Shown here one piece after another: positions 43,646 to 50,669 of a stretch of DNA of 64,000 nucleotides (position 1 is its first letter; each line of letters begins with the position of its first letter). Under the pieces are notes generated by a model. It saw only the letters and a program-made list of their open reading frames with translations. It had not been told where the DNA came from and made no database searches. Made by a program: the position numbers and the translations under genes. Source of the stretch: Aggregicoccus sp. 17bor-14 (GTDB lineage Bacteria > Myxococcota > Myxococcia > Myxococcales > Myxococcaceae); assembly GCF_009659535.1 (NCBI RefSeq), contig NZ_VJZZ01000010.1:124001-188000 (forward strand). Reading direction: 5' to 3'.

Positions 43646-43683
43646 GGCAGGCGGGCGGCGCGCGTGCTATGGCGCGGGCCACC

Positions 43684-44697
43684 ATGTCCCAGCTCTCCCC
43701 GCCGCTCAGCATCGAGTCCACCCGCTCCGGTCACCGCGAGTCCGTGCACCGCGTGCACGTGGCGGTGGTGGACGCGCGGGGGAGGCGGGTGGCGAGCGCG
43801 GGAGACCCCGGCCTGGTCACCTTCTGGCGCTCCGCCTGCAAGGCCTTCCAGGCGCTGCCGCTGGTGCAGGACGGGGCCGCGGACGCGTACGGCTTCGGGC
43901 CGCGCGAGCTCGCGCTCGCGTGCGCCTCGCACTCGAGCGAGCCGGTGCACCGCGCGCTCGCGCAGCGCATGCTGCAGCTCGCGGGCAACACCGAGGCGCA
44001 GCTCGCCTGCGGGCCGCACCCGCCGCTGTCGCAGGCCGTGGCAGACGCGGCGGCGCGCGAGGGCGTGGCCCCCACGCCGCACTGGAGCAACTGCTCGGGC
44101 AAGCACGCCGGCATGCTCGCGCTCGCGCGCCACCGGGGCTGGCCGCTCGAGGGCTACGAGCGGCGCGGGCACCCGCTGCAGGAGCGCATCCTGGACGAGC
44201 TCTCGCGCTGGACGGACGTGCCGCGCGAGCAGGTGCTGCTCGCGGTGGACGGCTGCACGGCGGTGAACTTCGGGGTGCCGCTGCACGCCATGGCGCTCGC
44301 CTACGCGCGGCTCGGCACCTCGGCCGAGCCCGCGGCGCAGCGCCTGTGCGAGGCGATGGCCGCCCACCCCGAGCTCGTGGCGGGCACCGGGCGCCTGTGT
44401 ACGGAGCTGATGGCGCTCGCGCGCGGGAGCGTGCTCGCCAAGGTGGGCGCCGAGGGCATCTACAGCGCCGTGGTGGTGCCCCTGGGGCTGGGCATCGCGC
44501 TCAAGGTGGAGGACGGCGACATGCGCTGCGCCCCGCCCGCGCTGCTCCACGTGCTGAAGGAGCTGATGGCCCGGAGTGGCGAGCGCTTCGCGCTGGACCT
44601 CGCCCCGCTCGCCCACCACGCGGAGCCCGCCCTCCGCACCACGCGTGGTGAGCAGGTGGGCTCCCTGCGTGCGGTGGGTGCGCTGCACTTCGCCTGA
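43684..44697 (+). CDS. L-asparaginase II-family amidohydrolase
   Basis: A 337-residue protein of the asparaginase II family (PF06089 type, as in Rhizobium asparaginase), distinct from the E. coli enzymes. Characteristic stretches are FWRSACKAFQALPLV (conserved Ser/Lys) and HWSNCSGKHAGML, with GCTAVNFGVPLHAMALAYARL and VVPLGLGIALKVEDGD nearer the C-terminus. It should hydrolyse L-asparagine to aspartate and ammonia in the cytoplasm. An in-frame ATG five codons upstream is an alternative start. It follows the kinase gene by 38 bases. Confidence 0.9.
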   Translation: MSQLSPPLSIESTRSGHRESVHRVHVAVVDARGRRVASAGDPGLVTFWRSACKAFQALPLVQDGAADAYGFGPRELALACASHSSEPVHRALAQRMLQLAGNTEAQLACGPHPPLSQAVADAAAREGVAPTPHWSNCSGKHAGMLALARHRGWPLEGYERRGHPLQERILDELSRWTDVPREQVLLAVDGCTAVNFGVPLHAMALAYARLGTSAEPAAQRLCEAMAAHPELVAGTGRLCTELMALARGSVLAKVGAEGIYSAVVVPLGLGIALKVEDGDMRCAPPALLHVLKELMARSGERFALDLAPLAHHAEPALRTTRGEQVGSLRAVGALHFA

Positions 44698-44790: not shown

Positions 44791-47535
44791 CTACGGCGCG
44801 CCGAGCACCTCGAGCTTGCCGATGCCGAAGCCCGCGCGGCCCACCACCGTGTTGCCGGCGTGGTCGCGCAGCGCCGCATCGAACGCGGTGTTGCTGCTGA
44901 GCGCCGCGCCGTCGAACACCACGCTGGACGTGGTGATGCCCGGCTGCAGGTCCAGCGCGACGGAGAAGAGCACCGTGCCGGCCGGGATGACCGTGTCATC
45001 CGGGACGCCGCCGCTGCCCCCTGCCTTCTGGCTCTGCACCGCGACGAGCGTGCCGCTCATCGGGCCGGACGCGGGCAGCTTCGCCAGCGCCGCCATCGGG
45101 GCCTTGCCGGGGTTGAGCACCGTGCCCGGGGTGAACTTGGCCAGGCGCACCGTGGCCGGGTTGACCGGCAGGTTGAAGCCCACGCCGAAGCCCGTCAGGG
45201 CCTCGCTCGCCACCAGGTCGAGCACCAGGTGCGAGGCGGTGGAGGCCGGGTTGGTCACCAGGCGCACCGAGCCCGTGCTGGGCGCGGTGTAGGCGAGGCC
45301 GGACGCCACCACGGAGAACGCCGCGCTGTCCCCGTGCAGGTCGCCGAGGGTGGCGCGCAGCGTGTAGCCGGTGCCCACCGTGTCCACGGTCAGGCCCGTG
45401 AAGGTCACGATGCCCTTGTCCGGGGTCGCGGTCAGCGTCCCGCCCAGCTTCGCGCCCGCCGCGCCGCCCACGAGCGAGAGCGTCACCTCGCGCGTCTCGG
45501 TGGCCGCCACGTTGCCGAACGCATCCTTCAGGGTGAAGGACACGTCGAAGGGACGGCCCACCACCACCTCCGCCGGAGGCGCCCGCGCGGCCAGCACCTC
45601 GGCCGCCGGGACGGGCACCGCCGCGAAGGCAGCGGTGTCACCGTGGAGGCTGCCGAAGGTCGCGCGCAGCACGTAGCCGGTGCCGACGTCGCTCACCGAC
45701 ACGCCCTCGAAGGTCGCGGTCCCGTTGGAGACGGGAACGGCGACCGTGCCGCCCAGGGCCGCACCCGCAGGGCCCCCGACGAGCGAGAGCGCCACGGAGC
45801 CCGCCTCGGCGGTGGCCACGTTGCCGAACGCATCCTTCAGCGTGAAGGCGACGTCGAAGGGACGGCCCGCACCCACCTCGCTCGGCGGGCCGCTGGAGGA
45901 CACCACCTGGGTGGCAGCCGCCGGCGTCACGTCGAAGGCCGAGGTGTCCGCGTACACGGTCTCGCTGACCGCGGCGCGCAGCACGTAGCCCGTGCCGGCC
46001 TGGGACAGGGACACGTCCGAGAAGCTCGCCACGCCCTGGCTCGAGCTCGCCGTGAGGGTGCCGTGCAGCGGCGCACCCGAGGGGCCGCCGACGAGCGACA
46101 GCGTCACCGTCTGCGCGGTGGGAACCACGTTGCCGAACGCATCCTCGAGCCGGTAGGAGAGCGCGAGGCTCTGACCCGCCACGACGGAGGAGGCCGGCAC
46201 GCGGGTGGCGACGACCTGGGCCACCTCCGCCGCAGAGACCTCGAAGGCGCTGCCCACCGAGGGGGCCCCCGAGCCGATGGCGACCTGCAGCGTGTAGCTC
46301 CCCGCCACCCGCGCGCTCACGCCGGTGAAGGTGGCCACGCCGCCGCTGCTCGCCTGGGACAGGGTGCCCTGCAGGGTGCCACCCTCGGGGGCGCTGGCCA
46401 CCGAGAGCTTCACCACCGCATCGGCGGGGTTGCCGAAGGCATCCACCACCGCCGCCGTCACCACCGGCGTGAACGCCACCCCGGCCACGGCGCCCGCCGG
46501 GGTCGAGGTCAGGCTCGCGGTCACTCCGGCCGCGGCCGTCACGTCGAACGCGGTGCTGGTGCCGCTCGCGCGCCCGCTCGCGGTCGCCTTCAGCGTGTAG
46601 CCCGTGCCGGCCTTCTCCACGCTGAGGCCCCGGAAGGTGGCCACGCCCGAGACGAAGGGCGCCGTCGTGAGGCCCTGCAGCTCGGCGCCGTTCGCGTTGC
46701 CGAGCGAGAGGGCAACCTCGCCCTGCGCCTTGGTGTCCAGCTTGCCCGCGCCGTTGCGGGCCTCGACCTTGATGGTGCCCAGCGAGGTGCCGGCCACGGC
46801 GCTCGCGGCGGGCTGCGCCGCGAAGGTGAGCCGGCCGTCCTTCACGTTGAAGGCCTCGGTCTTGGAGGCGGTGAGGGTGCCGCCCACCACGCTCAGCTGG
46901 TAGTCGCCGGGCTTGTCCACCGCGAGGTCCGCGAAGGTGGCCTCGCCGTTGACCACCGGTGCCGTGAGCGTGCCGCTCAGGGTGGCGCCGGTGTGGTTCA
47001 CGTCGATCAGCGTCACGCTGACCGCACCGCTCGCGCCGGTCGCCGGGTTGCCGTACGCATCCTTGAGCAGGACGTGCAGCACCGGCAGCTCCTGGCCGAT
47101 GGAGACGTCGTCCAGGGGGGTCGTGGTCCCGGTGAGCGTCACGGCGGCGGCCGCACCCGCGCTGACCTTGAAGGCGCTGGTGCTCGCCTCGTGGCCCTGC
47201 TGGGTGGCCTTGATCACCACGCCCTCACCCGCCTGGGTGAGCACGAGGCCGCTGAACACCGCCACGCCCTTGGTGGGCGCGCGGTGGGTCACGCCGGAGA
47301 GCGTGGCGCCTGCCGGAGCGCTGGCGAGCGACAGCTCCACCTCGCCCTTGGCGTCCTCCACGGTCTTGCCCTTCTCGTCACGCACGGTGACGGTGAGCGA
47401 GAACTCCTTTCCGGCCACGGTGTCGCCGGGCTGGGAGGTGACGGCGAGGGTGTTGTTCGAGTCGGAACCTCCGCAGCCGGCGAGCACCGCCAGGCCGAGG
47501 AGGAGCGAGGCAACTACTGCAGACGGGTAACGCAA
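44791..47535 (-). CDS. Lipoprotein with seven Ig-like repeats and a C-terminal cohesin-like module
   Basis: A 914-residue surface lipoprotein (signal peptide with lipobox VLAGC, Cys21). Seven consecutive Ig-like repeats of about 100 residues follow, each with a KDAFGNV-like turn, a VxLSLVGGPAGA strand, a G(T/V)ATFxG(V/L)SV strand and a GTGYxLRA strand. The C-terminal part (about 746-914) changes to a cohesin-like strand pattern: LVLDLVASEALTGFGVGFNLP, ATVRLAKFTPGTVLNPG and IPAGTVLFSVALDLQPG. The start is set at a TTG with GGGAG nine bases upstream, which gives a perfect lipoprotein signal; a GTG 19 codons earlier overlaps the upstream stop (GTGA) and is the alternative. The neighbour just upstream ends in a dockerin-like module, so the two products may bind each other. 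Confidence 0.88.
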   Translation of the reverse strand: MRYPSAVVASLLLGLAVLAGCGGSDSNNTLAVTSQPGDTVAGKEFSLTVTVRDEKGKTVEDAKGEVELSLASAPAGATLSGVTHRAPTKGVAVFSGLVLTQAGEGVVIKATQQGHEASTSAFKVSAGAAAAVTLTGTTTPLDDVSIGQELPVLHVLLKDAYGNPATGASGAVSVTLIDVNHTGATLSGTLTAPVVNGEATFADLAVDKPGDYQLSVVGGTLTASKTEAFNVKDGRLTFAAQPAASAVAGTSLGTIKVEARNGAGKLDTKAQGEVALSLGNANGAELQGLTTAPFVSGVATFRGLSVEKAGTGYTLKATASGRASGTSTAFDVTAAAGVTASLTSTPAGAVAGVAFTPVVTAAVVDAFGNPADAVVKLSVASAPEGGTLQGTLSQASSGGVATFTGVSARVAGSYTLQVAIGSGAPSVGSAFEVSAAEVAQVVATRVPASSVVAGQSLALSYRLEDAFGNVVPTAQTVTLSLVGGPSGAPLHGTLTASSSQGVASFSDVSLSQAGTGYVLRAAVSETVYADTSAFDVTPAAATQVVSSSGPPSEVGAGRPFDVAFTLKDAFGNVATAEAGSVALSLVGGPAGAALGGTVAVPVSNGTATFEGVSVSDVGTGYVLRATFGSLHGDTAAFAAVPVPAAEVLAARAPPAEVVVGRPFDVSFTLKDAFGNVAATETREVTLSLVGGAAGAKLGGTLTATPDKGIVTFTGLTVDTVGTGYTLRATLGDLHGDSAAFSVVASGLAYTAPSTGSVRLVTNPASTASHLVLDLVASEALTGFGVGFNLPVNPATVRLAKFTPGTVLNPGKAPMAALAKLPASGPMSGTLVAVQSQKAGGSGGVPDDTVIPAGTVLFSVALDLQPGITTSSVVFDGAALSSNTAFDAALRDHAGNTVVGRAGFGIGKLEVLGAP
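45290..47400 (-). repeat. Seven tandem Ig-like repeats, last two nearly identical
   Basis: Units of about 300 bases. Repeats 6 and 7 of the protein (roughly bases 45290-45890) share long stretches of identical DNA, for example around 45510-45580 and 45820-45880, indicating recent duplication or gene conversion; earlier repeats are more diverged. Confidence 0.85.
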
Positions 47536-47588
47536 GATCTGGGACTCCCGGTGGAGGCTGGAGTTGGAAGAGGGGCGTCGCGTCGCGG

Positions 47589-50500
47589 TCACGGGCGGCC
47601 TCCCACGTGCGTGAGCACGGCGGCGAGGTCCGCGTCGTCGATGCCGTTCACCGTGCCCGTCAGGTCCATGTTCCAGTCGTAGTAGGGCTGGCTCGTGGTG
47701 GCGGGGCTGGTGCCGGTGCGGTTGGCGGCCGCGAGCACGTCGTTGAAGTCGATGACGAGGTTGCGGTCGAAGTCACCGTTGCCGTTCACGCCCTTCTCGG
47801 CGGTGGCGGACGGGTAGATCTCCCAGAGCCCGCGGCCGAAGGTGGCCACGCGCACGAAGGAGCCGGTCTTGCTGACCACGATGTCGCGCACCGAGACCAT
47901 GGGCAGGCCCTGGCCGAAGCGCTCCCAGGTCTGGCCGCCGTCCGTGGTGCGGTACACGCCGAGCGCGTTGCCCACGTACAGGGTCTGGTTGCTCAGGTCG
48001 CTCGGGTCGTAGCGCACCACGTCGATGGGCAGGTTGGGCAGGTCGGAGGTGCCGTTGCCCTTGAGCGGCCGCCAGGTGGCGCCGCGGTTCTCGGTGATGA
48101 AGAGGCGGCCGAGCGCGTCCGGCACCGGGGCGCCGTCTGCCGTGGAGGGCGTCACGCTGGCCACCACGAACACGTCCCCGGGCTGCTTGCCGGCCACCGG
48201 GCCCGGCGGGAAGTCGATGCTCGAGGTGGAGGTCATCCGCTCGCTCGCGTCGACCGTGCCGTTGCCGTTGAGGTCCGCGCCCATGGGGTTGGTGCGCGTC
48301 CAGGTGCACTGGCTCGCCGGGGTGGTGAGGGTGCAGTTGCTCGTCACGCGGAAGCGGCCGCCGCTGAGCGCCACGCCGATGAGGCCGTCCTGCGTGGCCG
48401 CGACGCCGAGGTTGCGGTTCACCGCGCCGCCGGGGGCGCAGGCGCCCGCGGTGGTGGTGTCTGCCGGGTTGCCGAGCATCTCCCAGCTGCCCGCGCCCGC
48501 CGCGAAGGGGTCACCGCGGTAGCGCCACACGCCGAGGTCCGTCACGGTGTAGACGCCGGGGCCGGTGGCGGCCGTGGCCGCGCGCGCCGGCTGCAGGCGG
48601 GTGATGAACTGGTTCGCCACGTTGTCGCCCGGGCAGATGAGCGACGGGTAGTCGTCCGTGGGCCCGTAGTAGTACCAGTTCTCGCCGCGGTTGCAGTCCG
48701 AGTGGTCCGGGTCACAGACCGTGGAGCTCGTGTAGTAGAGCGAGCCCCAGTACACGCTGTCGCCCGGGGTCTCGGCCACCGCCGCGCCGAAGCCGTCGCC
48801 GCCGACGACCTGGTTGAAGGTCGTGGGCTGGCTCGCGCTGTCGCGGAAGCGGGTGCCGTTGTCCTGCAGGCCGCCGAACACCACCGCCTGGGTGCCCATC
48901 GCGGTGTCGCCGGTGCCCAGGTTGTAGAAGAGGTGGCTGACGATGCCGCGGTTGGGGAAGTCCCAGGTGACCGTGGTGTCGTCGATGGGGCCCGGGGTGA
49001 AGGCGTCGCGCGAGACGAAGAGGCCGCCGTCCGTGCCGGCGATCACCATCGTGACCGGCGTGCCGAACACGTTCTTGCTGGTCGCGATGCGGATGGTGTG
49101 CCAGTCCGCGTGCACGTAGGCGAGCCGGCCCTCGGCCGTGGTGCCGCCCGCGCCCGCGGGCAGCCAGTGCGAGATGTTCTCCCAGACGGGGCTCGCGGCC
49201 AGGCCGTCCAGCGTGCGGATGCTGCAGTAGTTGCCGCCCATCACCACGCGCTTGTCGTCGCGCGGGTCCACGGCGATCGCCTGGTTGTACCAGGCCTGGC
49301 CGTGCTGCACGTCCTGGGTGTCGCAGTAGTTGCTGCCCCAGGGGGTGACGAGGGTGGGGTTGCGCAGGGTGCCCCACGCGCTCACCCAGGTCTGGCCGCC
49401 GTCCGTCGAGCGCCAGATGTCCACGCCCGCGTCGCCCGGCAGGCTCGCCACCTGCGCGTAGAGCACGGTGGTGGCGGGGTCCGCCTTCGCGCTGCCCGCG
49501 GCCACGTCGATGCGGCCCGCGCCGCCCGTCACGGCGGGCACGCCGCCCGCCACGTTGCTGCGCGAGGTGAAGCTCGCGCCCGCGTCCGTGGAGAGCCAGA
49601 TGTCACCGACGCCGGTGCCCAGGTCCACGCCGCTCACCACCCAGCGCGAGACGCCGCCCACCTGGCCCGTGTACGCGACCGACCAGACCTCCTCGGCGCT
49701 GGGGCTCGCGTTGGGCAGGTCCACCAGCGCCCAGGTGGCGCCGGCGTCCGTGGAGCGGAAGAGGCCGATGTCCGTGCCCGCCAGCACCAGGTTGGAGTTG
49801 GCCGGGTCCACCGCCAGGGAGCGGAAGCGCGCCGCATCCACCGGGATGGGGGTGGTGTAGCCCAGGGTGCCGGCCGGGTACTGACCGCTCACCTGCACCG
49901 GCGCGGACCAGGTGGAGCCGCCGTTGGTGGTCTTGATGACCTGGCCGCCCGCGGTGTCGAACGCGTCACCGAGGCCGAGGAAGAGCACCTGCGGATTCGC
50001 GTGGTCCATGGCCAGCGCGCCGATCGCCAGGTTCCCGATGCCCTCGGTCACCGGGTACCAGGTGGGGTTCTTCGCGCCGAAGTTGAAGGTCTTCCAGAGG
50101 CCGCCGCCCGAGGTGGCCGAGTAGACGATGTCCGGGTTGGTGGGGTCCACCTCGATGCCGGTGGGCCGGCCCGAGTCGACCTGGAGGTACTCCACGCCGT
50201 TGGACTCGTAGTTCGCATCGGTGGGGCCCAGGTTGACCCACGCCTTGCCGGGGCCGGCGAGCGCGCCCGCCACGGGCTCGGCCACGCCGTTGCGCTGGCG
50301 CAGCGCCGCGGGCAGCGTGCTCTTCCAGCGCAGCGCCTCCTGGGCGGCGGTGCGCACCAGCTGCTGGCGCAGCGGCGCGGTCTGCTCGCCGTAGTAGTTG
50401 CGCATCGCCATCTGGCGCATGCGCGCGTCGTCCCACTCGCCCTTCTCGCTCTCCCCGGTCTCGCCGCGGATCGCCTCCAGGCGCAGCTTGGCCAGGTTGG

Positions 50501-50669
50501 GCTTGAGGCGGAAGGGCATCTCCGCATCGCCCGTCTTCTCGAAGTCCGTGGGCTGCGCCCGCACCGCGGGGTTGCGCCACTGGTTGTACGCAGCCACTCC
50601 ACCTGCGCCTGCTGCCGTCACGCTGACGCCGGCGATCAAGCCGACGAGTACTCGCTTCTGCCCTGGCAA
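47589..50669 (-). CDS. Exported Asp-box/sortilin-like propeller protein with C-terminal dockerin-like module
   Basis: A 1,026-residue exported protein (N-terminal hydrophobic VLVGLIAGVSVTAAGAGGVAAY). The body has at least six Asp-boxes (KTTNGGSTW, RSTDAGATW, STDAGASF, RSTDGGQTW, TENRGATW, RTTDGGQTW), as in VPS10/sortilin or BNR propellers. An EF-hand-like loop, DLNGNGTVDASE, lies near 796-808. The last 69 residues form a dockerin-like pair of calcium loops: DFDRNLVIDFND (966-977) and DWNMDLTGTVNGID (998-1011, with a two-residue insertion). The start is TTG with GGGGG seven bases upstream. A promoter of the TTGCAC-N18-TACAGT type precedes it. The cohesin-like lipoprotein gene follows at once, so co-expression is likely. 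No catalytic site is recognisable. Confidence 0.88.
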   Translation of the reverse strand: MPGQKRVLVGLIAGVSVTAAGAGGVAAYNQWRNPAVRAQPTDFEKTGDAEMPFRLKPNLAKLRLEAIRGETGESEKGEWDDARMRQMAMRNYYGEQTAPLRQQLVRTAAQEALRWKSTLPAALRQRNGVAEPVAGALAGPGKAWVNLGPTDANYESNGVEYLQVDSGRPTGIEVDPTNPDIVYSATSGGGLWKTFNFGAKNPTWYPVTEGIGNLAIGALAMDHANPQVLFLGLGDAFDTAGGQVIKTTNGGSTWSAPVQVSGQYPAGTLGYTTPIPVDAARFRSLAVDPANSNLVLAGTDIGLFRSTDAGATWALVDLPNASPSAEEVWSVAYTGQVGGVSRWVVSGVDLGTGVGDIWLSTDAGASFTSRSNVAGGVPAVTGGAGRIDVAAGSAKADPATTVLYAQVASLPGDAGVDIWRSTDGGQTWVSAWGTLRNPTLVTPWGSNYCDTQDVQHGQAWYNQAIAVDPRDDKRVVMGGNYCSIRTLDGLAASPVWENISHWLPAGAGGTTAEGRLAYVHADWHTIRIATSKNVFGTPVTMVIAGTDGGLFVSRDAFTPGPIDDTTVTWDFPNRGIVSHLFYNLGTGDTAMGTQAVVFGGLQDNGTRFRDSASQPTTFNQVVGGDGFGAAVAETPGDSVYWGSLYYTSSTVCDPDHSDCNRGENWYYYGPTDDYPSLICPGDNVANQFITRLQPARAATAATGPGVYTVTDLGVWRYRGDPFAAGAGSWEMLGNPADTTTAGACAPGGAVNRNLGVAATQDGLIGVALSGGRFRVTSNCTLTTPASQCTWTRTNPMGADLNGNGTVDASERMTSTSSIDFPPGPVAGKQPGDVFVVASVTPSTADGAPVPDALGRLFITENRGATWRPLKGNGTSDLPNLPIDVVRYDPSDLSNQTLYVGNALGVYRTTDGGQTWERFGQGLPMVSVRDIVVSKTGSFVRVATFGRGLWEIYPSATAEKGVNGNGDFDRNLVIDFNDVLAAANRTGTSPATTSQPYYDWNMDLTGTVNGIDDADLAAVLTHVGGRP

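Follow-up and report, generated by a model that had tools for sequence, protein, structure and literature searches.

The window analysed here is a stretch of 64,000 nucleotides (G000:C10:124001-188000) from the 6.9 Mb genome of Aggregicoccus sp. 17bor-14. Two genes on its minus strand, both present in the list of open reading frames (ORFs), encode an exported propeller protein with a dockerin-like C-terminus and, downstream of it, a lipoprotein with a cohesin-like C-terminus. The upstream gene (47589..50669, TTG start) specifies an Asp-box (BNR) beta-propeller protein of 1026 amino acids, which matches the Pfam BNR model at 1.3e-8 and has homologues in many genomes. The lipoprotein gene (44791..47535) lies in an ORF that opens at 47592 (44791-47592), and the TTG start at 47535 is preferred because the lipobox cysteine then becomes residue 21, as in relatives. 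This start lies 53 bases past the propeller stop, with the propeller gene ending at 47589, which agrees with the spacing given for these adjacent same-strand genes in the initial annotation. Judged from the sequence, a GTG codon overlapping the propeller stop is a possible alternative start.

The dockerin-like module occupies residues 960-1026 of the propeller protein (47592..47792, minus strand) and carries two putative calcium loops. Loop 1, DFDRNLVIDFND (D966-D977, 47739..47774), is a canonical 12-residue F-hand in which D966, D974 and D977 are invariant among relatives. Loop 2, DLTGTVNGIDDAD (D1002-D1014, 47628..47666), is degenerate, and with 13 residues it is one residue longer than the canonical 12 found in the relatives L081 and L083. 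Both loops had been recognized initially as dockerin-type; this stands for loop 1, while the two-residue insertion then assigned to loop 2 is in fact a single residue. The dockerin pattern is above chance because a profile of 27 homologous C-termini matches dockerins in the PDB, with 2y3n_B at an E-value of 2.9e-5 spanning both loops. The same profile matches the Clostridium perfringens NagH dockerin 2jnk at 5e-4, and 13 of the 27 family members are detected by the Pfam dockerin model PF00404 (best 9.6e-6). Furthermore, an hhalign comparison of window-type dockerins with PF00404-positive dockerins of the same system gives 1.4e-16. The C-terminus of the window protein alone, which the initial annotation proposed to compare with PF00404, has no match to that model. 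By these profile comparisons, the window C-terminus belongs to a dockerin-homologous family. In an AlphaFold2 (AF2) model of low confidence (pLDDT 68), helices are placed at residues 20-30 and 57-66 of the module. The sole PF00404 trace in the protein (13.6 bits) falls on internal residues 791-810, where a single EF-hand-like loop, DLNGNGTVDASE (residues 799-810, 48240..48275, minus strand), lies inside the propeller; its identification with the C-terminal module was rejected. The Acidobacteriota relative L212, which may be compared with the window protein in respect of this loop, has a complete dockerin inside its propeller and a cohesin gene next to it.

The lipoprotein starts with a LAGC lipobox (47473..47484, minus strand), followed by a stalk of seven Ig-like repeats with a period of about 100 residues (45292..47454), in line with the earlier description; the repeats give a weak match to Invasin_D3 below the cut-off. 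Its C-terminal 166 residues (residues 768-933, 44794..45291) form the cohesin-like module. Searches of this module with Pfam, NCBIfam, PDB sequences and a profile of 34 relatives identified no cohesin, and the cohesin model PF00963 that had been put forward for it matches neither the window protein, nor any other protein of its genome, nor the 34 relatives. The module is therefore named cohesin-fold or cohesin-like rather than a member of PF00963. A profile-profile alignment with six Pfam cohesins of the phylum is collinear, with a non-significant E-value of 0.067. The AF2 model built on an alignment of 34 homologues is a beta-sandwich of high confidence (pLDDT 96.1, pTM 0.90). With this model as query, the first 25 rows of a Foldseek search against the PDB are all cohesins (best E-value 1.1e-3, probability 1.00). 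Likewise, the first 47 entries of a VIA-align search are all cohesins or cohesin-dockerin complexes, with Z-scores from 11.1 (rmsd 3.0, 133 aligned residues) to 7.6 at about 10% identity, ahead of the first non-cohesin, YcnI, at 7.2. The module is thus predicted to adopt the nine-strand jelly-roll fold of cohesins, bearing out the cohesin-like strand pattern noted at first; as a match of a predicted model, this speaks for the fold and is no proof of function.

The two modules were searched for separately, and were regarded as linked when a dockerin lay within 8 kb of a cohesin module. In total, 72 cohesin-like modules were found in 46 of 195 genomes and 67 dockerins in 44 genomes, whereas the Pfam cohesin model has matches in no more than 6 of the 193 genomes searched within the phylum. 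A linked dockerin was detected for 65 of the 72 modules, at a median gap of 1.6 kb. Of the modules left without a detected dockerin, three are either cut-off matches or lie on small fragmented contigs (G026, G080:C277, G082:C213), and four, all in genome G011, stand beside M4 proteases whose ends appear by eye to be degenerate and dockerin-like. The two dockerins that are unpaired lie near contig ends. At the level of genomes, dockerins of this family are present in 44 of the 46 cohesin-positive genomes and in none of the 14 cohesin-negative genomes sampled (Fisher 7e-12). The genome of the window strain itself holds three cohesins and three dockerins arranged as three pairs (C10, C2:549-557 kb and C1:528-535 kb). 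As a natural control, myxobacterial propeller paralogues that lack a dockerin (L072, L102-L105; second copies in G000:C3, G007, G027, G050 and G057) have no neighbouring cohesin. The gene pair is conserved across the Myxococcaceae, as the docking proposal would require, and extends to other families of the Myxococcota and to the Acidobacteriota.

The trees of the two modules mirror each other. Over 56 pairs, cohesin and dockerin distances correlate with an r of 0.88, whereas random exchange of partners between paralogues within each genome gives a mean r of 0.63, and none of 2000 such shuffles reaches the observed value. Together with the linkage counts, this result led to the rejection of chance neighbourhood as an explanation. 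When Acidobacteriota are added, both trees split 26|41 into identical sets, with supports of 1.0 and 0.99. This split ignores the nature of the cargo: each side includes propellers, and one side combines M4, S53 and propeller cargoes.

The cargo is indeed more diverse than the propeller. At 17 sampled myxobacterial loci, the cohesin gene lies downstream of a gene for a dockerin protein of another kind. A full scan of four of these cargoes identified them as M4 thermolysin-like proteases that contain Ig domains and are about 1420-1495 residues long, three of them with a C-terminal PF00404 trace of weak or better score. A fifth (L162) has an M4 core like these four, and the remaining ones were placed in the M4 class by their length and near-identical dockerins. 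PF00404 recognises every one of the 16 dockerins of this second type that were tested. In addition, 80 loci were collected from GTDB with the propeller as query, by which the genomes found are biased toward propeller pairs. These include Acidobacteriota, such as Geothrix and Holophagaceae, with propeller, dockerin and cohesin lipoprotein, and a single case (L188) of an S53-type (pro-kumamolisin) protease as dockerin cargo. Dockerin-bearing protease cargoes, of M4 type and once of S53 type, hence span the Myxococcota and the Acidobacteriota. That the cargo would be a propeller rather than a cellulase accordingly holds for the window gene, but not in general, given the proteases.

On the side of the anchor, a script detected a lipobox in 46 of the 58 pair records, and inspection by eye added ten, making it near-universal. 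The impression that some relatives lack a lipobox was rejected for these ten records, for which the script was too strict. The distance from the lipobox to the module ranges from about 90 to 1900 residues; the shortest stalks consist of a short proline-rich linker, and G011 and some Acidobacteriota are without any Ig stalk.

Several further observations concern relatives of the pair. Three loci (L100, L101, L263) encode tandem M4 proteases with degenerate dockerin-like C-termini beside stalkless cohesin lipoproteins, which suggests a third type of pair that dockerin profiles miss. Propellers of Bacteroidota (L198-L244) have neither module, and their C-terminal tails resemble, by eye, the sorting domains of type IX secretion; such tails may represent a parallel route of the same propeller family to the cell surface. 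One propeller (L173) occurs in a metagenome-assembled genome titled Klebsiella pneumoniae, a record that is probably mislabelled.

The remainder of the window propeller protein begins with a probable Sec signal peptide (50589..50669, minus strand), read from a KR pair and a hydrophobic stretch ending in ...GVAA/YNQW, and its Asp-box region, supported by Pfam BNR and profile matches, covers residues from about 140 to 951 (47817..50252). The propeller profile matches the GH74 oligoxyloglucan cellobiohydrolase 1sqj at 1.5e-12 over profile positions 166-311, and other BNR proteins likewise over parts only; part of the propeller thus resembles GH74 xyloglucan enzymes, a family marked by twin seven-bladed propellers with catalytic aspartates, as far as a partial profile match can indicate. 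On the other strand, an ORF at 43664-44697, whose product by eye resembles an asparaginase-type protein, ends convergently with the lipoprotein gene.

Taken together, the computed evidence, which comprises the predicted cohesin fold, the family's homology to dockerins, the physical linkage and co-occurrence of the modules and their mirrored trees, makes it very probable that the window genes encode a dedicated cohesin-dockerin pair that holds the propeller on a lipoprotein stalk, as one case of a modular system with one anchor for each cargo. The propeller protein would leave the cytoplasm through its Sec signal peptide, carrying the dockerin at its C-terminus. The Ig-like repeats of the lipoprotein would form a stalk tipped by a divergent cohesin that is invisible to Pfam, and this cohesin would capture the dockerin, probably through calcium. 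The propeller would then be retained at the envelope without a covalent bond, most likely on the outer face of the outer membrane. Within the Myxococcota and Acidobacteriota, dockerin and cohesin would stay together as a unit, whereas the cargo (propeller, M4 or S53-type protease) and the stalk vary. Binding, its calcium dependence and the outer-surface location of the lipoprotein are what we infer from these data.

Several findings weigh against this reading. Neither Pfam, nor PDB sequences, nor the profile-profile comparison yields a sequence-level cohesin match, and the Foldseek E-values reach only about 1e-3. The window dockerin has a non-canonical second loop and a poor AF2 model. Two dockerin propellers of the Holophagaceae genome G196 (L265 on C149, L266 on C19) have no adjacent cohesin module; both may depend on one cohesin whose gene lies at another locus. 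Finally, mirrored trees would also result from co-inheritance in one operon alone, but operon inheritance does not explain modules that are kept matched while cargo and stalk change.

The missing sequence tie to known cohesins, together with the commonness of beta-sandwich matches, would fit an ordinary operon without docking, in which the module shares only its fold with cohesins and is some other stalk or adhesin domain. We consider this very unlikely, as cohesins top both structure searches and are set apart from the first unrelated fold, and as the module accompanies the dockerin even where the cargoes are not homologous, and is missing from the sampled dockerin-less genomes and propeller paralogues. 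The cohesin lipoprotein could also face the periplasm and act as a chaperone or secretion adaptor that gathers dockerin cargo before export. Its orientation is unreadable from sequence, the genes abut or overlap, and stalkless forms exist in G011 and some Acidobacteriota, all of which would suit such a role; the wide range of stalk lengths, however, fits outward reach better than a confined periplasm, and the Bacteroidota copies of the propeller have sorting-like tails, so that a periplasmic adaptor seems unlikely.

A third possibility is that the cohesin on one cell binds a dockerin from kin, or one fixed in the matrix, and that the pair serves adhesion or kin recognition. Matched types without partner swapping inside genomes would suit such pairing, and adjacent cohesin and dockerin genes of syntrophic sulfate reducers and ANME archaea have been proposed as adhesins (PMC10553843, PMC9012536). 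The M4 and S53-type protease cargoes, however, suggest the tethering of enzymes over adhesion, and one anchor for each cargo exceeds what a common adhesin needs, which makes cell-to-cell pairing a rather improbable account. Retention of the cargo on the producing cell by a dedicated docking pair is thus preferred, and it is a prediction that can be tested directly in cultured strains.

In a wider sense, there is about an even chance that these modules represent a cohesin family not recognised before and serve as a general platform for display in Gram-negative bacteria of the soil, among them many predators. The pairs would tether secreted proteases and propellers on lipoprotein stalks of tunable length and, over deep evolutionary time, would have moved from cargo to cargo as a unit. 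If true, this would explain how some myxobacteria and Acidobacteriota retain secreted enzymes on the cell. The cohesin of such a one-cargo, one-anchor system is overlooked by a standard model search, and the system would offer many orthogonal cohesin-dockerin pairs for engineering.

The binding of cohesin and dockerin is among the strongest protein contacts known and has been studied mostly in cellulosomes. The multi-cohesin scaffoldin and glycoside hydrolase cargo of a cellulosome are not found here, where each lipoprotein has one cohesin and the cargoes are propellers and M4 or S53-type proteases. The anchoring scaffoldins of cellulosomes (Clostridium thermocellum OlpA/OlpC, 3ul4, 4dh2) resemble the arrangement proposed here, in which a surface-anchored cohesin would capture a dockerin protein, but the present system differs by a single divergent cohesin per anchor, a lipid instead of an SLH anchor, and propeller or protease cargo. 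The NagH/NagJ-type modules of C. perfringens (2ozn/2jnk, 2jh2, 2o4e), which rank with the strongest matches obtained for both window modules, likewise represent a non-cellulosomal pairing of secreted proteins. In that Gram-positive organism, both modules belong to secreted glycoside hydrolases, whereas the cohesin of the Myxococcota and Acidobacteriota stands on a lipoprotein stalk and is paired one-to-one with the product of the neighbouring gene. In the Bacteroidota, whose propellers of this family carry sorting-like tails, the tail, identified by eye and not by a model, is part of the same chain, in contrast to the separate docking partner proposed here. A search of the openly accessible literature yielded no description of a comparable system from the Myxococcota. 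Cohesins and dockerins outside cellulosomes are known from bacteria and archaea (PMC9012536), and neighbouring cohesin and dockerin genes of syntrophic sulfate reducers have been proposed to encode adhesins (PMC10553843). The candidate adhesins of ANME archaea and these sulfate reducers share with the window pair their non-cellulosomal nature, adjacent genes and a probable extracellular setting, but they were found with standard domain libraries, whereas the cohesin described here is missed by Pfam and differs in its cargo and lineages.

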